The notes under the pieces: model-generated
What the model was told of the DNA's origin: nothing
Databases searched by the model: none
Seen by the model: only the letters and a program-made list of their open reading frames with translations
Assembly (NCBI RefSeq): GCF_031458255.1
Contig: NZ_JAVDYC010000001.1
Coordinates: 8,480,501-8,544,500 of the forward strand
Reading direction: 5' to 3'
Source of the DNA: Catenuloplanes niger
Lineage (GTDB): Bacteria > Actinomycetota > Actinomycetes > Mycobacteriales > Micromonosporaceae
Length of the DNA: 64,000 nt
In this document: piece after piece, positions 34,955 through 50,138 of the stretch
Layout of the letters: each line of letters starts with the position of its first letter
Position numbering within the stretch: the stretch's first letter is position 1
Made by a program: the position numbers and the translations under genes

Positions 34955-35262
34955 GGTGGCCTCCGGTCGCGGTGGTTGCCCGGCACGACCGTGCCGGACC
35001 GGGTCATCGCCCGGGGCATCCCGGCCGCGAGACGGAGGGTTGCCGGCCGGCGAGCCGGGGCTTCGCGCCGGCGCTCATGACCTGCCGCGCCAGACTACCA
35101 ACCGCATCCACCGAGGCCGGCCCACACCGCGCTCCGGCCACCGACAGCGGCAGCACCGGCCCACGTCCGGCGTGCCGGTTCGTGGCGCGGTCGCGCTGCT
35201 GGCAGAACGCGCCCGGCCGGTCGATCGGCCGGCCACGGCCGTGTGGCGTGCGGGGCGGCGGC
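34955..35262. other. Gene-free stretch
   Basis: These 308 bases hold no convincing reading frame. Apart from the GNAT ribosome site at the left end I see no terminator, repeat or RNA gene. Confidence 0.6.
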
Positions 35263-40354: not shown

Positions 40355-40455
40355 GGGCCCCGTTCCCTCCGGCCCGGGCCGGATCTCCCCGGGCTGGTCA
40401 CACCCTAGAGGACCATGTCGAGCCGGGTGGGGCACCCTACGGCGCAATGCTGCCC

Positions 40456-40473
40456 AACCCTATCGGCGAAGTA
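40456..40473 (+). promoter_or_regulatory. Conserved 18-bp element upstream of the organosulfur operon
   Basis: AACCCTATCGGCGAAGTA matches the element upstream of metNIQ at 16 of 18 positions. A -10-like TATGAT overlaps its right end (40472-40477), so a bound regulator would interfere with RNA polymerase. It lies about 60 bases before the leader-peptide start. Confidence 0.6.
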
Positions 40474-40533
40474 TGATTAGGTCAACGGTTTGCGCCGCTC
40501 ACGTGCGATAGCCGACACCCGGAGGTCATCTCG

Positions 40534-40647
40534 TTGACACCCCGGCACGCTCCGCGCTGGACTGGTCACATGTGCGGCACGCTGCGGCTCACCATCCGCG
40601 GCCACATCGACTTCGGTCGCGTGTGGTCGGCGTCCTGTCCGGCCTGA
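40534..40647 (+). CDS. Cys-containing leader peptide of the sulfur operon
   Basis: A 37-codon reading frame starting TTG, with GGAGG eight bases upstream. An internal ATG would give a 25-residue version. The C-terminal half, LRLTIRGHIDFGRVWSASCPA, has the pattern L-x-x-R-x-H-[IV]-D-x-x-R-x-x-S-A-x-C seen in short actinomycete leader peptides placed before cysteine and sulfur genes (from memory, not searched). The penultimate Cys codon TGT is at 40636-40638, and the segment around it is complementary to the ribosome site of the next gene. A Cys-sensing cis-regulator is inferred. Confidence 0.7.
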   Translation: MTPRHAPRWTGHMCGTLRLTIRGHIDFGRVWSASCPA

Positions 40648-40716
40648 TCCGAACCCCTCCGCATCACGCACCACACCCCAGCGCCGGGGCGAAGCCATGC
40701 CCGAATCCGGACAGGA
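40633..40716 (+). promoter_or_regulatory. Predicted translational attenuator pairing leader Cys codon with downstream Shine-Dalgarno
   Basis: TCCTGTCCGG (40633-40642), spanning the leader's Ser-Cys-Pro codons, is perfectly complementary to CCGGACAGGA (40707-40716), which includes the AGGA of the solute-binding protein's ribosome site. A ribosome stalled at the Cys codon would cover the first arm and free the site. The pairing is seen directly; the mechanism is inferred. Confidence 0.6.
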
Positions 40717-40724
40717 GCACCTTC

Positions 40725-42338
40725 ATGAGATCGCGTCTGTTACCCGCCGTCATCCTGTCACTACTGCTGGCCGCGTGCGGATCGGCTCCGGCCGCGAGCG
40801 CGGCCGGTGAGCCGAGGAGCGGCGGCGACCTGGTGTGGGCCGTCGAGACCGAGCCGCTGACGTTCAACCCGCACCAGTACGCGCAGGCCAAGGCGCGCCC
40901 GCTGGTCTGGAACTCGTTCGAGGCGCTGTTCACCCACGACGAGCAGGGCAACTACGTACCGTGGCTGGCCACCGGCATCGAGGGCGGCGACCGGGAGTAC
41001 ACCATCCGGCTCCGGACCGGCGTGACGTTCCACGACGGGGAGACGTTCGACGCCGCCGCGGTCAAGGCCAACTTCGACCTGCTGCTCTCCGACGGCTACA
41101 ACCCGCAGGTGCGCACCGTTCAGCTGCGCAACCTGAAGAGCGTCGAGGTCGTCGACCCGGTCACGGTGCGGCTGCACCTCTCCGTGCCGGACACGCTGAT
41201 CCGCGACTTCCTCACCACGCCGCAGGGCGCGCAGATCTCCCCGAGATCGCTCCGGAACGCGAAGAACCTCAAGGCCGGGGGTACGGACGTGGTCGGCACC
41301 GGCCCGTTCGTGCTCGACTCGTACACGGCCGGCCAGCAGGTGGTCTACCGGCGGAACCCGGCCTACGACTGGGCGCCGGCGACCGCCGCGCACACCGGGC
41401 CGGCCTACCTGGACACGGTCACCTACCGGTTCCTGAAGGAGTCGTCGGTGCGGATCGGCGCGCTCACCTCCGGCCAGGTGCGGGTCGTCGAGGGCGTGCC
41501 CGCCACCGACGAGGCCACCATCGCCGCGAACCGGCGGCTGCGCCTGGACCGCGGCCTCAACTCCGGATCCGCGTACGCGTACTACCTCAACGTCGACCAC
41601 GCGCCGTTCGACGACATCCGCGTCCGGCAGGCGTTCCGCGAGGCCGTCGACGTCGGCGCGGTGCTGGAGTCGGTCTACCGGGGCACCGCCACCCGGGCGT
41701 GGAGCGTGGTCAGCCCGTCGTCGCGGTTCTACGACGACACCCTCGAGGGCGCGTACGGCGGGGACGCCGCGACGGCGAACGCGCTGCTCGACGCGGCCGG
41801 CTGGACCACCCGCGACGCCGAGGGATACCGCACCCGGGACGGGCGGCGGCTGACCGTGCGGCTGGTGCAGAGCGCGCCGTTCGTCCGCGACCGGCGGGAG
41901 ATCCTGGCCCAGGCGGTGCAGGCCGCGGTCAAGCAGTCCGCCGGCATCCACCTGGACGTGCGGCTCGTCGACCAGGGCACGGCCACCGCGGCGCTGAACG
42001 ACGGCGAGTACGAGCTGTTCGACAACTCCCGCGCGGACACCGACGCCGGGGCCGCGCTCAACCTGCTGCTGCACTCCCGGGGCGCGATCAACCGTACCCA
42101 CCTGGACTCCCCGGAGCTCGACGGGCTGCTCGACCGGGGCCAGGCCACGCCGGACGCGGCCGACCGCCTCAAGATCTATCAGGAGGTGCAGCGGTACGTC
42201 GTGCGGGACCAGGCGGTCGTGCTGCCGCTCTACGCCCCGCAGGACCAGCTCGCGGTCTCCGACACGGTCGGCGGCACCGGCTTCGAGCCCACCGCGGGCG
42301 TGCCGGCCGGCGCGTACGACGTCTGGATCGGCGCATGA
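40725..42338 (+). CDS. ABC importer solute-binding lipoprotein (family 5, oligopeptide/nickel type)
   Basis: A 537-residue DppA/OppA-type lipoprotein. The lipobox is LLLAACGS, so Cys19 or so is lipidated. AVETEPLTFNPHQYAQA near the mature N-terminus and GVTFHDGETFDAAAVKANFDLLL are family 5 signatures. AGGAG lies before the ATG, partly locked by the predicted attenuator. It would bind a small organic sulfur compound or peptide and deliver it to the two permeases downstream; the ligand is inferred from the neighbouring monooxygenases and leader. Confidence 0.9.
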   Translation: MRSRLLPAVILSLLLAACGSAPAASAAGEPRSGGDLVWAVETEPLTFNPHQYAQAKARPLVWNSFEALFTHDEQGNYVPWLATGIEGGDREYTIRLRTGVTFHDGETFDAAAVKANFDLLLSDGYNPQVRTVQLRNLKSVEVVDPVTVRLHLSVPDTLIRDFLTTPQGAQISPRSLRNAKNLKAGGTDVVGTGPFVLDSYTAGQQVVYRRNPAYDWAPATAAHTGPAYLDTVTYRFLKESSVRIGALTSGQVRVVEGVPATDEATIAANRRLRLDRGLNSGSAYAYYLNVDHAPFDDIRVRQAFREAVDVGAVLESVYRGTATRAWSVVSPSSRFYDDTLEGAYGGDAATANALLDAAGWTTRDAEGYRTRDGRRLTVRLVQSAPFVRDRREILAQAVQAAVKQSAGIHLDVRLVDQGTATAALNDGEYELFDNSRADTDAGAALNLLLHSRGAINRTHLDSPELDGLLDRGQATPDAADRLKIYQEVQRYVVRDQAVVLPLYAPQDQLAVSDTVGGTGFEPTAGVPAGAYDVWIGA

Positions 42339-43258
42339 GGCATGTCCTGCGGCGGCTCGGCACCGGGCTGGTGGTGCTGTGGGCGGCGGCGACGGCCGCG
42401 TACCTGGCGCTGCTGCTCGCGCCCGGCGACGTCGTCGACCGGATCATCGGCGACGGTGCGGACACGCCGGAGATCCGCGCGCAGATCGTCCGCGATTGGC
42501 ACCTGGACCGGCCGGAGATCGTGCAGTACGCCGACTACCTGTGGCGGCTGCTGCGCGGCGACCTCGGCACCTCCTACCTGCTGCAGCGCCCGGTCGCGGA
42601 CGTGCTCGGCGAGCAGATCCCGCCCACGCTGCAGCTCGCCGCGCTGGCCGGTGCGCTCGGCGTGGCGCTCGCCGTGCTCGCGGCCGTGGCCGGTGCCGGT
42701 GACCGCCGCCCGTGGCTGCGCCGCGTGCTGTCCACCGCGGAACTGGCCGTCGTCTCCACGCCGTCGTTCCTGATCGGGATCGTGCTGCTCACGGTGTTCT
42801 CGTTCCGGCTCGGCCTGTTCCCGGTCGCCGGTGGCGCCGGGCCGGCCGCGCTGGTGCTGCCCGCGGTCACGCTCGCGCTGCCGATCGCCGGGCTGCTCGG
42901 CCAGGTGCTCCGCGACGGCCTCGACCGCGCGCTGGACGAGCCGTTCGTGGTCACCGCCCGCGCCCGCGGCCTGCGCGACCGCGCGGTCCTGGCCCGGCAC
43001 GCGCTCCGGCACGCGCTGCTGCCCGCGGTCACGCTGGCCGGCTGGCAGTTCGGGCTGCTGCTCGGCAGCGCGGTGATCGTCGAGCAGGTCTTCGGCCGGC
43101 CCGGCGTCGGCCGGGTCACGCTGGACGCGGTCCTCGGCAGCGACATGCCGGTCGTGCTCGCCGTCGTCGTCCTCGCGGCCGCGGTCCACGTCGCGCTGAA
43201 CACCCTGGCCGACCTCGCCTACCTGCTCATCGACCCCCGGCTGCGGAGGACCACATGA
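42335..43258 (+). CDS. ABC importer permease 1 (DppB-like)
   Basis: A 307-residue permease with six predicted helices. It begins RRLGTGLVVLWAAATAAYLALLL and has the conserved DppB-type LDRPEIVQYADYLWRLLRGDLGTS block. The coupling loop is TARARGLRDRAVLARHALRHALLP. It starts within the stop of the solute-binding gene (ATGA) and overlaps the next permease likewise. Confidence 0.92.
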   Translation: MRHVLRRLGTGLVVLWAAATAAYLALLLAPGDVVDRIIGDGADTPEIRAQIVRDWHLDRPEIVQYADYLWRLLRGDLGTSYLLQRPVADVLGEQIPPTLQLAALAGALGVALAVLAAVAGAGDRRPWLRRVLSTAELAVVSTPSFLIGIVLLTVFSFRLGLFPVAGGAGPAALVLPAVTLALPIAGLLGQVLRDGLDRALDEPFVVTARARGLRDRAVLARHALRHALLPAVTLAGWQFGLLLGSAVIVEQVFGRPGVGRVTLDAVLGSDMPVVLAVVVLAAAVHVALNTLADLAYLLIDPRLRRTT

Positions 43259-44112
43259 CGCCGGCCCTCGACCGGGTCCGCGGCACCCGGTGGACCGTCA
43301 CGCCACGGACCGGGCCGGGCATCGCGGCCGCGGTCGCGTACCTGACGCTGGTGGCGATCGCGGTGGCCGCGCCGGGTGCGCTCGGCGCCGGCGACCCACT
43401 GGCCGCGAACCCCCTCGACGCGCTGCTGCCGCCGTCGGCCGCGCACTGGTTCGGCACCGATCAGCTCGGCCGGGACGTGTTCGACCGGGTGGTGCACGGC
43501 GCACGGGCCTCGCTGGCCATCGGCGTCGCCGCCACCGCCGTCGCGGTGGGCGCCGGCGTGCTGCTCGGCCTGCTGGCCGGTCTCGCGCACCGGTGGGCCG
43601 ACGAAGCGCTGGCCCGCTCGTTCGACGCGCTCTCCGCGTTCCCGCTGCTGCTGCTCGCGTTGCTGTTCATCGCGCTCGCCGGCACCGGCACGCTCAGCCT
43701 GACGATCGCGATCGGCATCGCCACGCTGCCGCACTACGCCCGCGTGGTCCGCGCGCAGACCCTGCGGGTCCGCCGCGCCGGGTACGTGTCCCAGGCGGTC
43801 GCGTTCGGCCGCTCCCGGGCGGGCATCGTGGTCCGGCACGTGCTGCCGAACGTGCTCGGCCCGATCCCGGTCGTCGCGGTCATCGGGCTCGGCGAGGCGG
43901 TGCTGGCCGCGGCCGGGCTCAGCTTCCTCGGCATGGGACCGCAGCCGCCGTCCCCGGAGTGGGGCGCGATGCTCGCCGAGGGCCGCAACTACCTCTCCGT
44001 CGCCTGGTGGTCCGGCATCCTGCCGGGCGTCGCGGTCACGCTCACCGTCATCTCGCTGACCGTGACCGGCCGCCGCCTCCAGGCCCGCTTCGAGGGACGG
44101 GACCTCCGATGA
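43255..44112 (+). CDS. ABC importer permease 2 (DppC-like)
   Basis: A 285-residue permease. HWFGTDQLGRDVFDRVVHGARASLAIG is the DppC/OppC hallmark, and SQAVAFGRSRAGIVVRHVLPNVLGP is the ATPase-contact loop. It forms the channel with permease 1. ATGA overlaps at both ends couple it to its neighbours. Confidence 0.92.
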   Translation: MTPALDRVRGTRWTVTPRTGPGIAAAVAYLTLVAIAVAAPGALGAGDPLAANPLDALLPPSAAHWFGTDQLGRDVFDRVVHGARASLAIGVAATAVAVGAGVLLGLLAGLAHRWADEALARSFDALSAFPLLLLALLFIALAGTGTLSLTIAIGIATLPHYARVVRAQTLRVRRAGYVSQAVAFGRSRAGIVVRHVLPNVLGPIPVVAVIGLGEAVLAAAGLSFLGMGPQPPSPEWGAMLAEGRNYLSVAWWSGILPGVAVTLTVISLTVTGRRLQARFEGRDLR

Positions 44113-45755
44113 CCACTGTCGACGACGCCGCCCGGCCGGACACCACCGCGCCGGCCGGCGAGGCACCCGTGATGATCGCCGTCGAGGACCTGCACGTCAC
44201 GTTCCGGACCGCGCGCGGTGCGGTCGAGGCGGTGCGGGGCGTCAGCTTCACCGTCGCCGCCGGTGAACGGGTCGCGATCGTCGGGGAGTCCGGGTCCGGC
44301 AAGAGCGTCACCGCGCGCACGCTGGTCGGCCTCGCCGGACCGCGGGCCACCGTCCGGGCGGGCCGCCTGGAGATCGACGGGCGGGACGCGCGCGGCTTCA
44401 CCGAACGGGACTGGCAGCGGGTGCGCGGCCGGACCGCCGGGCTCGTGCTGCAGGACGCGCTGGTCTCGCTCGACCCACTGCGCCGGGTCGGCGACGAGGT
44501 CGGTGAGGCGCTGCGCACCCACCGGCTGGTCCCGGGCCGGCTGGTGGACGAACGCGTCGAGGAGCTGCTGACCGAGGTGCACGTGCCGGAACCGGCCCGC
44601 CGCGCCCGGCAGTACCCGCACCAGCTCTCCGGCGGCCTGCGGCAACGCGCGCTGATCGCGTCCGCGATCGCCGGCCGGCCGAAACTGCTGATCGCGGACG
44701 AGCCGACCACCGCGCTGGACGTGACCGTGCAGGCCGCGATCCTGGGCCTGCTCGCCGAGCGCCGGGACACGCTGCTGCTGATCAGCCACGACCTCGCCGT
44801 GGTCGCCGCGATCGCGGACCGGGTGCTGGTCATGCGCGACGGCCGGATCGTCGAGTCCGGGCCGACCGCGCAAATCCTCGGCGCGCCCCGCCACGCCTAC
44901 ACCCGGGTGCTGCGCGACGCGGTGCCGTCCGCGGCGTCCCGCGGTCGCCGGCTCGCCCCACCCGGCGGGCCGCTGCCGGTCGCGGCGCACCGCTCCGGCG
45001 AACCGGTCGTGACGATCAAGGACCTGACCAAACGGTACGGCGGGCACACCGCGGTCGCGGACGTGTCGCTCGACGTGCACGCCGGGGAGATCGTCGGACT
45101 GGTCGGCGAGTCCGGGTCCGGCAAGACCACGGTCGCGCAGCTGCTGTTCGGCACGGTCGCACCGGACGCGGGCACCGTCGAGTTCGAGCGCCGGCCCTGG
45201 TCCGGCGTGCCGGAGCGCCGGCGCCGGCCGTACCGCCGGCGCATGCAGTTCGTCTCGCAGGACCCGCTGAACTCGTTCGACCCGCGCTACCCGGTCGGGC
45301 GGATCATCGCGGAGGCGCTGCCCGGCCGCGGTGCCCGCCGCCGCGAGGTGCTCGCGCTGCTGGACCGGGTCGGGCTCGGCGAGGAGCACGCGGACCGCCA
45401 TCCCCGGCAGTTGTCCGGCGGGCAGCGGCAGCGGGTCGCGATCGCCCGGGCCGTCGCGCCCCGGCCCAGCCTGATCATCTGCGACGAGCCGGTCTCCGCG
45501 CTGGACGTGTCCGTGCAGGCTCAGGTGCTCGACCTGCTGGCGGAGCTGCGCGCCCAGGACGGCACCGCCTACCTGTTCATCTCGCACGACCTCGGCGTCG
45601 TCCACCACCTCGCGGACCGGGTCCTGGTCCTGCACGAGGGGCGCGTGGTCGAGGCCGGGCCGGTCGGCGACGTCTTCCACCATCCGCGGCACGACTACAC
45701 GAAGGCGCTGGTCGCGGCGTTGCCCACCTCGGTCACAGGAGGAACTGCCCCATGA
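44109..45755 (+). CDS. ABC importer ATPase, DppD-DppF fusion
   Basis: A 548-residue protein containing two complete ATPase domains. Each has a Walker A (GESGSGKSV near 65 and GESGSGKTT near 340), a signature (LSGGLRQRALIASAI and LSGGQRQRVAIARAV) and a Walker B (LLIADEPTTALD and LIICDEPVSALD). In most peptide/nickel importers these are two proteins; here one fused polypeptide should serve both nucleotide sites. It overlaps the permease and the first monooxygenase by ATGA. Confidence 0.92.
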   Translation: MTTVDDAARPDTTAPAGEAPVMIAVEDLHVTFRTARGAVEAVRGVSFTVAAGERVAIVGESGSGKSVTARTLVGLAGPRATVRAGRLEIDGRDARGFTERDWQRVRGRTAGLVLQDALVSLDPLRRVGDEVGEALRTHRLVPGRLVDERVEELLTEVHVPEPARRARQYPHQLSGGLRQRALIASAIAGRPKLLIADEPTTALDVTVQAAILGLLAERRDTLLLISHDLAVVAAIADRVLVMRDGRIVESGPTAQILGAPRHAYTRVLRDAVPSAASRGRRLAPPGGPLPVAAHRSGEPVVTIKDLTKRYGGHTAVADVSLDVHAGEIVGLVGESGSGKTTVAQLLFGTVAPDAGTVEFERRPWSGVPERRRRPYRRRMQFVSQDPLNSFDPRYPVGRIIAEALPGRGARRREVLALLDRVGLGEEHADRHPRQLSGGQRQRVAIARAVAPRPSLIICDEPVSALDVSVQAQVLDLLAELRAQDGTAYLFISHDLGVVHHLADRVLVLHEGRVVEAGPVGDVFHHPRHDYTKALVAALPTSVTGGTAP

Positions 45756-46942
45756 GTCAGTTGCATCTGGCCGTCGCGCTGGACGGCGCCGGCTGGCATC
45801 CGGCCGCCTGGCGCGTGCACCGGCCGGCGATCCTCACGGCCGGCTGGTGGGCCGGGCTGGTCGCGGAGGCCGAGCGCGGACTGCTCGACTTCGTCACCGT
45901 CGAGGACTCGCTGGCGCCGCCGTCCGAACTGCCCGGCGTGCCGGTCGACCGGGCCGACCGGGTCCGCGCGCGGCTGGACGCGGCCGTGATCGCGGCCCGC
46001 GTCGCGCCGCTGACCACGCACATCGGCATCGTCCCGACCGTCACCACCACGCACACCGAACCGTTCCACATCGCCAGCGCGATCGCCACGCTCGACTACG
46101 TCAGCACCGGGCGGGCCGGGTGGCGCGCGCAGGTGTCCGCGCGGCAGGCCGAGGCCACGCACGTCGGACGGCGCACGGTGCCCGCGCTGCACACGGCGCG
46201 GCCGGACCGGATCGCGGAGGTCGTCCGGCCGCTGTTCGACGAGGCGGCGGACGTGATCGAGGTGGTGCGCCGGCTCTGGGACTCCTGGGAGGACGACGCG
46301 ATCATCCGGGACGTGGCCACCGGGCGGTTCGTCGACAACCGGAAGCTGCACTACGTCGACTTCGAGGGGGAGTGGTTCAGCGTCAAGGGGCCGTCGATCG
46401 TGCCCCGGCCGCCGCAGGGACAACCGCTGGTGACCGTGCTCGGGCACGCGACGGTGCCGTACCTGCTGGGGGTGCGCGGCGCGGACGTGCTCTACGTGAC
46501 GCCTGACTCGGGCGCGCACGCCGCGGCCGTCGTGTCCGAGGTGCGGGCCTCGGAGCGGGCCGAGGGCCGCGACGGCGTACCGTTGCGGATCTTCGGTGAT
46601 CTTGTGGTCTTCCTCGATCCGGAGCCGGGCGCGGCGGCGCGCCGGAAGCGTGAGCTGGACGACCTCGACGGGGCGGAGCTGACGTCGGACGCGTTCGTGT
46701 TCACCGGTACGCCGGGGGAGTTGGCGGACCTGCTGGTGGAGTGGCGGGCCGCGGGGCTCGACGGGTTCCGGCTGCGGCCCGGGGTGCTGCCGGACGACCT
46801 GACACTGATCGCGCGGGAGCTGACCGCGCGGTTGCGGGAGCGCGGGCTGTTCCGCAGCGCGTATCCGGGCACGACGTTGCGGGAGACGCTCGGGCTGTCC
46901 CGTCCGGCCAGCCGCTACGCCGTCGCGGGAGGCGCCGCATGA
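45752..46942 (+). CDS. LLM-class flavin-dependent monooxygenase (NtaA/DmoA-like) 1
   Basis: A 396-residue luciferase-like monooxygenase. The barrel starts LHLAVALDGAGWHPAAWRV; TTHIGIVPTVTTTHTEPFHIASAIATLDYVSTGRAGWRAQVS is the FMN/substrate region (given in family order). Related enzymes oxidise C-S or C-N bonds of organosulfur compounds or chelators using reduced FMN from a partner reductase; none is in the operon. AGGAGG precedes the ATG. It follows the importer without a gap, so it probably acts on the imported compound. Confidence 0.85.
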   Translation: MSQLHLAVALDGAGWHPAAWRVHRPAILTAGWWAGLVAEAERGLLDFVTVEDSLAPPSELPGVPVDRADRVRARLDAAVIAARVAPLTTHIGIVPTVTTTHTEPFHIASAIATLDYVSTGRAGWRAQVSARQAEATHVGRRTVPALHTARPDRIAEVVRPLFDEAADVIEVVRRLWDSWEDDAIIRDVATGRFVDNRKLHYVDFEGEWFSVKGPSIVPRPPQGQPLVTVLGHATVPYLLGVRGADVLYVTPDSGAHAAAVVSEVRASERAEGRDGVPLRIFGDLVVFLDPEPGAAARRKRELDDLDGAELTSDAFVFTGTPGELADLLVEWRAAGLDGFRLRPGVLPDDLTLIARELTARLRERGLFRSAYPGTTLRETLGLSRPASRYAVAGGAA

Positions 46943-48309
46943 CCAAGCAGATCATCCTGGCCGCGCACTTCCCGGGCGTGAACAACACGACCGTGTGGAC
47001 GGATCCGGCGGCCGGGTCGCAGATCGAGTTCTCGTCGTTCGTGCACCTGGCGCGCACGGCCGAACGCGGGCTCTTCGACTTCTTCTTCCTGGCCGAGGGG
47101 CTGCGGCTGCGCGAACAGCGCGGCGAGATCTACGACCTGGACGTGGTCGGGCGGCCGGACACGGTGACGGTGCTGGCGGCGATCGCGGCGGTGACCGAGC
47201 GTCTGGGACTGGCGGGGACGCTGAACGCGACGTTCCACGAGCCGTACGAGCTGGCCCGGCAGCTGGCCTCGCTCGATCACCTGTCCGGCGGGCGGGCCGC
47301 GTGGAACGTGGTGACCACACCGAACGCGTTCACCGGGGAGAACTTCCGGCGGGGCGGCTTCCTGTCCTACGCGGACCGGTACACGCGCGCGGCGGAGTTC
47401 ATCGCGGCGTCGCGGACGCTGTGGGACTCGTGGTCGGCCGAGGACCTCGTCGTCGACGGGGACTCGTTCGCGCGCACCCCGGCGCCCGGAGCGTTCGCCT
47501 TCCACGGCACGCAGTTCGACATCTCCGGGCACTTCACGGTGCCGCGCAGCCCGCAACGGCATCCGGTGATCATCCAGGCCGGTGACTCGCCGGCGGGGCG
47601 GGACTTCGCGGCGGCGTCCGCGGACGCGATCTTCTCCCGGCACAGCACGCTGGAGGCCGGGCAGGCGTTCTACCGGGACGTGAAGGGCCGGCTCGCGGCG
47701 TACGGGCGGACGCCGGACTCGCTGAAGATCCTGCCGGCCGTCAGCTACGTGCTCGGCGACACGGACGCGGAGGCGCAGGAGAAGGCGCACCACATCCGGC
47801 GGCAGCAGGTCACGCCGCAGACCGCGATCCGGCACCTGGAGCAGCTGTGGAACCGGGACCTGTCCTCGTTCGACCCGGAGGGGCCGCTGCCGCCGTTCGA
47901 CCCGGACGTCTCCGGCGAGTCGATCGCGCAGGGCCGGACCAGGCTGTTCGACGACCCGGTCGCCACGGCGCGCGCGTGGCGGTCCCTGGCGGAGGAGAAG
48001 GGCCTGGGAATCCGTGACCTGATCATCGAGGTGACGGGCCGGCAGTCCTTCATCGGTACGCCGGCGGCGGTGGCCGAATCGGTCGACGCGTTCGTCCAGC
48101 AGGACGCGGCGGACGGCTTCATCCTGGTCCCGCACCTCACGCCGGCCGGACTCGACGACTTCGTCGACCGGGTGGTGCCGCTGCTGCAGGAGCGCGGCGT
48201 GTTCCGGACCGCGTACCCGTCCGGCGGCTCGACGCTGCGGTCGCTGCTGGGGCTTCCACCCACCTCGCCCGCGTCCGTCGCGTCCTTCCTCGGCGGCGGC
48301 CCGGCATGA
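46939..48309 (+). CDS. LLM-class flavin-dependent monooxygenase (NtaA/SnaA/DszA-like) 2
   Basis: A 456-residue enzyme of the NtaA/SnaA/DszA/SoxA subgroup. HFPGVNNTTVWTDPAAGSQIEFSSF, ATFHEPYELARQLASLDHLSGGRAAWNVVTT and HFTVPRSPQRHPVIIQAGDSPAGRDFAA are hallmark blocks. Members release sulfur from dibenzothiophene, dimethyl sulfone and similar compounds, or attack nitrilotriacetate. The sulfur-type leader and promoter element favour an organosulfur substrate. Overlaps the next frame by ATGA. Confidence 0.88.
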   Translation: MTKQIILAAHFPGVNNTTVWTDPAAGSQIEFSSFVHLARTAERGLFDFFFLAEGLRLREQRGEIYDLDVVGRPDTVTVLAAIAAVTERLGLAGTLNATFHEPYELARQLASLDHLSGGRAAWNVVTTPNAFTGENFRRGGFLSYADRYTRAAEFIAASRTLWDSWSAEDLVVDGDSFARTPAPGAFAFHGTQFDISGHFTVPRSPQRHPVIIQAGDSPAGRDFAAASADAIFSRHSTLEAGQAFYRDVKGRLAAYGRTPDSLKILPAVSYVLGDTDAEAQEKAHHIRRQQVTPQTAIRHLEQLWNRDLSSFDPEGPLPPFDPDVSGESIAQGRTRLFDDPVATARAWRSLAEEKGLGIRDLIIEVTGRQSFIGTPAAVAESVDAFVQQDAADGFILVPHLTPAGLDDFVDRVVPLLQERGVFRTAYPSGGSTLRSLLGLPPTSPASVASFLGGGPA

Positions 48310-49038
48310 AGATCCTGCTGATCACGCTCATCACGCACCTGCCGGACCCGCTCACCGGCGTGCGGCCGTCGACCACGCAGCGATTCCGGGACGTGGTGGA
48401 CAACGCGGTGCTGGCCGAGGAGCTCGGATTCGACGGGTACGGCGTGGGCGAGCGGCACGAACGCCCGTTCATCTCCTCGTCCCCGCCGGTCGTGCTCAGC
48501 CACATCGCGGCACGCACCGCACGGATCCGGCTGTTCACGGCCGTGACCACGCTCGCGCTGCTCGACCCGGTCCGCGCGTTCGAGGACTACGCCACGCTGG
48601 ACCACCTCTCCGGCGGGCGCCTCGAACTGATCATCGGGAAGGGCAACGGCGCGGCTGGGACCGCAACCGGGAGGCGTACGAGCTTTTCCGGCAGCCCAGG
48701 AGGCGATCGCGACCTGGCGGCCGATCTTCGAGGCGCGGCAGGCCGCGTTCCGGCGGCTCGGCGTCGACCCGGTGTTCACGTCCGTCGAGGACGCGGTCGA
48801 GCGCAGCTCCGCGCTGGTCGGCAGCCCGCAGCAGATCATCGAGAAGGTGCAGCGCTACCACGCCGCGTTCGGCCACGAGGTCATCCACCTGCACGCCGAC
48901 CGCGACGGCCTGACCCCGGCCCAGCACCGGAGGACGCTCGAACTGTTCCAGAGCGACATCGCGCCCGCGCTGCGCGCCGCGATCCCGAGCCGGCCGTTCT
49001 CTCCCGTCCCACCGTCTACCGTGGAGGCCGCCGCATGA
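48306..49038 (+). pseudogene. Disrupted LLM-class monooxygenase (two internal deletions)
   Basis: Pieces of one LLM enzyme appear in three frames. Frame 1 gives MKILLITLITHLPDPLTG to LELIIGKGNG (about 116 residues, to 48653). A second frame gives only WDRNREAYELFR (from 48656). A third gives AQEAIATWRPIFEARQAAFRRLG through to the C-terminus (48694-49038, about 114 residues). The family is about 360 residues, so roughly 115 central residues are gone. Frame 1 then stays open by chance into the following gene, giving a 610-codon fused frame. Overlaps with both neighbours are preserved, so polarity on the operon may be small. Assembly collapse is possible but would need two separate errors. Confidence 0.8.
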
Positions 49039-50138
49039 CCACGCCCCTGGCCGTTCTGGACCTGTCGCCCGTACCGTCCGGGTCCGGTCCCGGTGACGCG
49101 CTGCGCAACACGATCGACCTGGCCCGGCACGTGGAGGAGTTCGGCTACCACCGCTACTGGCTGGCCGAGCACCACTTCGCGCGGGGCGTCGCCAGCTCCG
49201 CCACGGCCGTGCTGATGGGCGCGGTCGCGGGCGCCACCCGCCGGATCCGGGTCGGGTCCGGCGCGGTGCAGGTCGGGCACCGGACCGCGCTCTCCGTCGC
49301 CGAGTCGTTCGGCACGCTCGACGCGCTGTACCCCGGCCGGATCGACCTCGGCCTGGGCCGGTCCGGTCAGCGCCGCTCGGAGACCGCGGCCCCGCCGGCA
49401 CCCGCTCCGGCCCGGGTGGTGGACGGGTTGCTCATCCCGGCGGCGTTCTCCTTCAGCCACCTCTTCACGACCCCACGATTCCGGGCGTACGGGAAGCTGC
49501 TGCAACAACCCGGCGCCGAGACCCCGGACTTCGCGGACCAGGTCGACGACCTCCTCGCGCTGCTGCGCGGCACCTGGGTGTCCCCGGACGGCATCGACGC
49601 GCACGCGGTGCCGGGCGAGGGCGCCGACCTGCAGGTGTGGATCCTCGGCAGCAGCGCCGGGCAGAGCGCCCGGGTCGCCGGCGCGCTGGGCCTGCCGTTC
49701 GGGGCGAACTACCACGTCAGTCCCGCGACCGTGCTGGAGGCGGTGCGGGCCTACCGGGACGCGTTCACGCCCGGCATGCTCGACCGCCCGTACGTGTCGG
49801 TCTCCGCCGACGTCGTGGTCGCCCCGACCGACGCCGAGGCACGCGAGCTGGCCTCCCCGTACGGGCTGTGGGTGCGCAGCATCCGCGGCGGTGGCGGCGC
49901 GATCCCGTTCCCCGGCCCGGCCGAGGCACGCGCGCACGTCTGGTCCGACGAGGACCGCGCGCTGGTCGCCGACCGCCTCGACACCCAGTTCGTCGGCGCG
50001 CCCGACACGGTCACCGCCGCGCTGCGCACGCTGCGCGACGTCACCGGCGCCGACGAACTACTGATCACCACGATCACCCACGACCACACCGATCGCGTCC
50101 GCTCCTACGAACTGCTCGCCAAGGAGTGGAACCGCTGA
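49035..50138 (+). CDS. LLM-class flavin-dependent oxidoreductase (MsnO8-like)
   Basis: A 367-residue luciferase-like enzyme. LAVLDLSPVPSGSGPGDALRNTIDLARHVEEFGYHRYWLAEHH is the MsnO8-family opening (family order) and DLGLGRS the FMN loop. GGAGG lies before the ATG, and the ATG overlaps the stop of the damaged monooxygenase. Last gene of the sulfur operon; the next gene is convergent. The specific reaction is unknown. Confidence 0.87.
   Translation: MTTPLAVLDLSPVPSGSGPGDALRNTIDLARHVEEFGYHRYWLAEHHFARGVASSATAVLMGAVAGATRRIRVGSGAVQVGHRTALSVAESFGTLDALYPGRIDLGLGRSGQRRSETAAPPAPAPARVVDGLLIPAAFSFSHLFTTPRFRAYGKLLQQPGAETPDFADQVDDLLALLRGTWVSPDGIDAHAVPGEGADLQVWILGSSAGQSARVAGALGLPFGANYHVSPATVLEAVRAYRDAFTPGMLDRPYVSVSADVVVAPTDAEARELASPYGLWVRSIRGGGGAIPFPGPAEARAHVWSDEDRALVADRLDTQFVGAPDTVTAALRTLRDVTGADELLITTITHDHTDRVRSYELLAKEWNR

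Follow-up and report, generated by a model that had tools for sequence, protein, structure and literature searches.

The leader open reading frame (ORF) and the two complementary RNA arms that precede an importer-monooxygenase operon of Catenuloplanes niger form a real, conserved cis-regulatory element. We consider it reasonably likely that this element works as a cis-acting, cysteine-responsive translational attenuator, in which one single Cys codon lies inside the arm that pairs with the Shine-Dalgarno (SD) sequence of the first gene of the operon, encoding a solute-binding protein (SBP). The window, that is, the whole stretch of 64,000 nucleotides analysed, belongs to a host genome of 9.74 Mb contained in a single contig, and the features discussed here are collected in Table 1.

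Table 1. Features of the leader region and the operon, with positions in the window.
Feature	Position	Strand	Basis
Degenerate CCTA-N9-TAGG dyad, 1 mismatch in 8	40459..40475	+	Best-match search, orthologous upstream regions
TTGACA, probable -35 of the leader promoter	40534..40539	+	TTGAC spacing in 20/20 loci, alignment
TGGACT, possible -10 immediately 5' of the leader ATG	40558..40563	+	Inferred from a weak match to the -10 consensus
Leader ORF, 25 codons, MCGTLRLTIRGHIDFGRVWSASCPA, probably leaderless	40570..40647	+	ATG in 20/20 loci; weak NF042936 match
Arm 1, TCCTGTCCGG, Ser-Cys-Pro codons, anti-Shine-Dalgarno	40633..40642	+	Conservation, covariation
TGT Cys codon, proposed stall site	40636..40638	+	TGT in 26/26 leader-bearing orthologous loci
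Arm 2, CCGGACAGGA, over Shine-Dalgarno AGGAG 40713-40717	40707..40716	+	Conservation, covariation
Solute-binding protein, SBP_bac_5, first operon gene	40725..42338	+	PF00496, E 5.6e-72
ABC permease, Opp/Nik B type	42335..43258	+	Profile matches
ABC permease, Opp/Nik C type	43255..44112	+	Profile matches
ABC ATPase, two ATP-binding domains	44109..45755	+	Profile matches
Luciferase-like FMN monooxygenase, NtaA/DmoA-like	45752..46942	+	PF00296; TIGR03860 240.7 bits, under cut-off 279.7
FMN-dependent monooxygenase, NtaA/DmoA family	46939..48309	+	TIGR03860 396.2 bits, over cut-off 279.7

Complementarity of the arms in the window

A sequence-only reading of this DNA had claimed a perfect 10-bp complementarity between the Ser-Cys-Pro codons of the leader (arm 1) and the region of the SBP ribosome site (arm 2), and it was found exactly so. 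At the codon level arm 1 reads TCC-TGT-CCG-G, and arm 2 runs into the AGGAG located seven bases before the ATG of the SBP gene. When the leader was submitted to dinucleotide shuffling, 34 out of 20,000 sequences reached 10 bp against the SD region of the window, and among 4898 other 78-nt stretches of the + strand none reached 10 bp and 88 reached 8. The local fold predicted for the region includes the helix between both arms. The total fold energy is ordinary, being not above that of shuffled sequences (z -0.55 and -0.12), and the evidence rests on the specific arms.

Distribution of the leader and of the SD word

Orthologues of the SBP were detected at E <= 1e-120 in 69 of 300 genomes of the family, one of them at an assembly gap, which leaves 68 usable loci, with SBP starts picked automatically by SD strength (a few are doubtful, e.g., L053 and L096). 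Relatives whose SBP is at least 64% identical include members of Micromonospora, Actinoplanes, Winogradskya, Pseudosporangium, Plantactinospora, Catellatospora, Dactylosporangium and Virgisporangium, and in an order-level sample orthologues appeared in 10 of 348 genomes, all from the same family as the window. No leader was seen in the 330 nt inspected by eye upstream of the SBP gene of a Nonomuraea relative (L199, 60% identical).

A leader was found in 26 of the 68 usable loci, 20 of them of the type present in the window (HID) and six of a second type (SID). The SID leaders are all in the g29 group (Actinoplanes and relatives) and end in SIDLCRRAGLSCRR or similar, one of them being shortened, and in them the arm pair becomes TCCTGTCGC/GCGACAGGA. 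The spacer between leader and SBP gene varies from 46 to 236 nt among the orthologous loci. Two congeners (G002 and G003, loci L006 and L007) carry leaders 92% and 89% identical to that of the window before a broken or remnant SBP gene, and in another congener (G001, L013), whose SBP is 85% identical to that of the window, no leader was found and a promoter-like stretch lies near the SBP start.

The presence of the leader is associated with a specific SD word, GACAGGA, which was found in 23 of 26 leader-bearing orthologues against 3 of 42 others (Fisher 7e-12), and among these 42 are L097, L104 and L106, which on visual judgement hold leader-like remnants. The association is maintained when Micromonospora is excluded (9/12 against 1/40) and inside g29 alone (5/6 against 1/32). 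Three leader-bearing loci lack the word, one of them with GACGGGA, where G-U preserves the pairing, and two with GACTGGA, and the word is kept despite the lack of a leader in two Micromonospora loci (L068 and L070) and in one leaderless g29 locus (L055).

Probable start codon and promoter of the leader

The 37-codon open frame ending in SASCPA, from TTG 40534 to TGA 40647, is present as had been described, and the start at this TTG, with the good ribosome site attributed to it, is probably wrong. In the 20 HID loci preceding an SBP gene there is always an ATG at 25 codons from the stop, always without an SD, and always with a TTGAC 35-37 nt upstream, whereas the TTG frame is open through to the leader stop in only eight of them, and the GGAGG preceding the TTG exists in the window alone. 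Because of this conservation we take the TTGACA for a -35 element and regard the leader as a leaderless ORF of 25 codons. We discarded TTG 40534 as a start codon, as the spacing of TTGAC is conserved, the frame is mostly closed and the triplet belongs to the TTGACA; translation probably starts at ATG 40570 of a leaderless mRNA. A consensus promoter scan of the leader region reported no promoter, and hexamers resembling the TGGACT of the window occupy the same place across the compared loci, g16 excepted.

A CCTA-N9-TAGG dyad lies upstream of SBP orthologues both with and without leader, and in leaderless g29 loci it adjoins a TTGCCA-like promoter near the SBP start. The best match in 67 orthologous upstream regions was exact in 51, had one mismatch in 12 and was worse in 4; as up to 700 nt were searched per region, without a chance control, the single-mismatch matches may be due to chance. 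The dyad is probably the operator of a regulator, and the degenerate copy of the window is possibly a site for this regulator overlapping an upstream promoter.

Covariation of the arms and history of the leader types

The alignment of homologous operons had been proposed as a check of the pairing. For this, 17 distinct arm pairs taken from 28 loci (the SBP gene is broken in two) were aligned with rows anchored on the Cys codon and on GGAG, and not on the pairing itself. Pairing was detected in 94.1% of the arm cells (87.9% when columns were shuffled), with a covariation score of 0.185 (0.075 in the shuffles), and none of the 500 shuffles was as high for either value. When the register was slid by 1-3 columns, pairing fell to 32-48%. 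Counts of covarying pairs and of pair types showed no excess over the shuffles (347/500). The two outer pairs are C-G and G-C in the window, U-G and G-U in most Micromonospora, and G-C and C-G in the SID loci.

In a tree of 49 SBPs, HID leaders appear on several early branches and SID leaders within the g29 group, and the Dactylosporangium-Virgisporangium branch, outside all the leader-bearing ones, has no HID leader before the SBP gene. Since the SID peptide resembles Ms5788A and the HID peptide Ms4527A, both weakly, the SID leader may have evolved from HID step by step, or another leader may have taken the place of HID. With either origin each leader type fits its own SD, but few independent events are behind the covariation.

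Predicted accessibility of the SD

The ensemble probability of the arm helix is 0.98 in the window and at least 0.5 in 17 of the 26 leader-bearing loci, being below 0.5 in nine and near zero in some of them. When a ribosome was modelled as a 32-nt block over the Cys codon, opening the SD together with the start codon became cheaper in the window, from 10.1 to 6.2 kcal/mol. Over the 26 loci, the median cost of opening the SD was 9.1 kcal/mol for the free RNA, 6.2 with the block over the Cys codon and 9.1 with a block placed upstream, and the Cys-codon block lowered it by more than 1 kcal/mol in 16 loci and raised it in one. With arm 1 blocked, the unpaired fraction of the window SD goes from 0.08 to 0.22, meaning that it is still mostly paired elsewhere.

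The helix between SD and leader scored 22.0, compared to 16.2 in other windows with the same spacer (P 5e-7, 23 of 26 loci scorable). It was also above the control windows when only representatives were used (9 of 10 scorable, P 0.008), although in five of these nine some same-spacer control window scores as high as the SD helix or higher. All of these results are computational: the arms exist, are conserved and covary, they go together with the leader, and the SD is predicted to open more easily under the modelled ribosome. They support the proposal that the Cys-codon arm pairs with the SD.

Leaders preceding other genes and related families

In seven HID loci (L024, L030 and L033-L037) the leader precedes other genes, the identity of which is uncertain for L024 and L030. 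In all seven the best helix between leader and SD is ordinary and GACAGGA is absent. The expectation that the arms would be conserved wherever the leader is kept was then borne out for the SBP operon and failed for these seven loci. As SD pairing is missing there, TCC-TGT must be kept in them for another reason, and the direct pairing with the SD is a property of the SBP operon and not of every HID leader. No comparable pairing was found in six nirA leaders examined.

The host genome encodes three more leader-like ORFs, preceding nirA, a rhodanese gene and an SDF-family symporter gene, one of which scores over the family cut-off; with its loose threshold, the search also gave matches in 6 of 14 control genomes, none over the cut-off. 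The ORF at the symporter (L281, around 1485-1606) ends in RRRHVDHMRVSSALCPAR and lies 54 nt upstream of the gene, and its Cys-codon stretch TCTGTCCGG can pair, as judged by eye, with CCGGACAGA just 3' of it.

Compared with curated leader families, the 25-codon leader of the window gave 19.6 bits (E 0.0005) with NF042936 (Ms4527A), and its 37-codon reading 18.5 bits, both under the cut-off of 45, and NF042934 gave no match at E up to 1. The SID leaders showed weak matches to NF042933 (Ms5788A) and NF042934, all below the curated cut-offs. At E <= 0.001, leaders of the NF042934 family are present in at least 199 of the 296 genomes sampled from the class, and at least 177 genomes have one over the cut-off. 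We studied 70 parsed loci of this family, hand-picked among the matches listed (L108-L116, L118-L137 and L142-L181 were used), L117 being misparsed and excluded from the codon count and from the same-spacer control test. The motif [AHS][VI]D[LF]xR, placed 4-6 residues ahead of the Cys, fits 69 of the 70.

TGT encodes the first signature Cys in 59 of 69 NF042934 leaders, compared to 15 of 121 Cys codons in the downstream genes. The last Cys within three residues after the signature Cys is TGT in 52 of 69, and a cruder count gave 42 of 69 for the last Cys codon and 63 of 140 for the other Cys codons, so that the bias is strongest at the signature position. In these counts the loci are not independent, and in the 26 SBP leaders the pairing of the arm also demands TGT. 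This preference, an observation and not a mechanism, suggests the choice of a slow or pairing-competent codon.

The possibility that SD pairing extends to the whole NF042934 family was also considered and discarded. A permutation test detected an excess of leader-SD pairing (15.05 against 13.69, 63 loci; one locus per genus, 38 loci, P 0.0002), but this vanished against same-spacer windows (14.35 against 14.34, 53 loci, P 0.55; 30 genera, P 0.35), a control that drops short-spacer loci, some of which pair strongly at the leader stop (L157, L170, L171 and L173). As the same-spacer control shows no excess, we make no family-wide claim of SD pairing.

The operon and its probable link to sulfur

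The description of this operon as a sulfur importer was upheld in part: the neighbouring genes point to it, but the SBP family itself does not show a sulfur role. The SBP reaches 238.3 bits with TIGR04028, under the cut-off of 468.5. Further luciferase-like open frames follow the second monooxygenase gene. One of them (48306-50138, +) looks like two fused monooxygenase pieces and is possibly a broken gene. In one relative (L034) the HID leader precedes an SsuE-type FMN reductase gene (207.7 bits, cut-off 164.05), therefore tying the leader to sulfur supply. From the FMN monooxygenases and from the presence of the same leader before ssuE elsewhere, the operon probably serves sulfur uptake. Against Rfam, the window gave a single match, to a SAM-IV riboswitch (34967-35082, -) with 79.5 bits for a gathering score of 38, and in the leader region none reached the gathering score.

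Proposed mechanism and alternative explanations

In the mechanism that we propose, the mRNA would probably start at the leader ATG. With plentiful cysteine, ribosomes would traverse the 25-codon leader and leave, and the free arm 1, UCCUGUCCGG, would pair with arm 2, masking the SD of the SBP gene. When charged Cys-tRNA is scarce, a ribosome would linger at the UGU within arm 1 and keep it covered, in such a way that the SD would stay open and the importer-monooxygenase operon would be translated. What we infer here is that the start is leaderless, that the ribosome stalls at UGU, that cysteine is the signal and that the operon has a role in sulfur supply, and scarcity of Cys-tRNA at the TGT as the trigger would follow by analogy with a related leader family. 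A ribosome at the stop codon, three codons past the Cys, would also cover arm 1, so only the dwell time would separate both states, and sensing through a single Cys codon is weaker than through a poly-Cys tract.

The peptide itself could be responsible for the stall. By nascent-peptide arrest, the conserved HIDFGRVW before S-x-S-C would slow or stop the ribosome, with cysteine or another thiol signal exerting its effect either on the nascent chain or, given the peptide context, at the Cys codon, and the arms would report the stall in the same way. This sequence is found in eight genera, and as YIDFGRVW in a ninth, before differing downstream genes, a conservation that exceeds what a plain codon counter needs; pN/pS is 0.39 in codons 10-19 of seven representatives, and the motif before the Cys is kept across the wider family. 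However, synonymous sites are also conserved, with pS of 0.158 in codons 10-19 and 0.310 in codons 1-9, and RNA constraint may partly explain the pattern, while the SID leaders alter most of the motif and yet keep arms of at least 7 bp in five of six loci. Arrest is in our opinion unlikely. A UUCG hairpin over HIDFGRVW, predicted and conserved, was set aside as evidence since it varies little and some of the changes break pairs (L028 and L034 have GGC for GGT). A combined possibility, to which we give only a small chance, is that the leader family as a whole is a cysteine sensor with a single UGU, a minority Cys codon in these genomes, at near-fixed distance after HIDFGRVW or HVDLxRV, where nascent chain and slow UGU decoding would jointly provide single-codon sensitivity and the RNA output would vary from gene to gene, with an arm pairing directly to the SD in the case of the importer and other structures elsewhere.

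Control could instead be transcriptional: translation of the leader would govern termination by Rho within the spacer, with the SD pairing being secondary. The wide differences in spacer length fit with this, and Rho has been suggested for mycobacterial cys leaders in the excerpted text of PMC1262725, but no intrinsic terminator was found within 40400-40800 and the covariation maps to the SD pairing; we consider it quite improbable. It seems very improbable that the arm is a coincidence in which the Ser-Cys codons TCC-TGT happen to include an anti-SD word and are retained for the peptide alone. TCC-TGT or TCG-TGT is indeed retained in the seven HID loci whose SD fails to pair, but against it stand the two pairs in which both partners change together from one leader type to the other, and the fact that GACAGGA is strongly tied to the presence of the leader. 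The translational attenuator with the Cys codon inside the anti-SD arm is the reading that we prefer.

Discussion

If the attenuator proposed here is true, cysteine-responsive control by upstream ORFs (uORFs), so far a matter of poly-Cys leaders in mycobacteria, would extend to the Micromonosporaceae and to an operon for an importer and monooxygenases. The sensing codon would then lie within an RNA arm supported by covariation, which raises the question of whether a single UGU in a conserved peptide context is able to sense cysteine. Close relatives without leader (e.g., the congener G001 and the leaderless Actinoplanes group) are natural comparisons.

In the system of Canestrari et al. 2020 (Mol Microbiol 114:93), stalled ribosomes reportedly block a structure that masks the ribosome site of the next gene. 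By computation, a structure that hides the SD and that a ribosome over the Cys codon would open is also predicted here, and the run of consecutive Cys codons near the stop is replaced by a single one. In translational attenuation of the erm type, a ribosome stalled on the leader occupies one arm and thereby exposes the ribosome site of the following gene. The element proposed here would likewise free a downstream ribosome site by means of a stalled ribosome on one arm, but it would respond to an amino acid and not to an antibiotic, and through a single direct pairing between arm and SD instead of a two-hairpin switch.

Excerpts of earlier work provide the background for such control in actinobacteria. 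Conserved Cys-rich leaders have been reported (PMC4633059, PMC1262725), the Cys codons have been called probably essential (PMC9094748), short ORFs with contiguous Cys codons could control downstream translation through ribosome speed (PMC9031893), and translation attenuation through an occluded SD has been described, in a text that also states that cysteine genes of M. smegmatis are under translation attenuation (PMC13236596). Eight leader peptides have been listed for Streptomyces lividans, none of them described as cysteine-dependent in the excerpted text (PMC8079986). Our literature searches gave no direct description of Ms4527A or of an actinobacterial single-Cys attenuator. The leaders studied here share with NF042936, NF042933 and NF042934 a similar R-x-H-[VI]-D-x-x-R-V-x-S-x-x-C layout, whereas every HID and SID score is under the curated cut-offs. 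They resemble the actinobacterial cys-operon leaders in having Cys codons near the stop and no terminator hairpin found, but those have runs of Cys, and an SD-pairing arm is not mentioned for them in the excerpt of PMC1262725.

As far as the excerpts describe the mycobacterial poly-Cys uORF attenuators, these are, like the leader of the window, short ORFs with a Cys codon near the stop. They are leaderless and lie before sulfur genes, as is probably also the case for the leader of the window, and they exert translational control by ribosome speed at Cys codons, as is proposed here. In contrast to them, the leader of the window has one Cys codon near the stop instead of a run, this codon sits inside the anti-SD arm, and the target is an SBP_bac_5 importer with FMN monooxygenases in the Micromonosporaceae.
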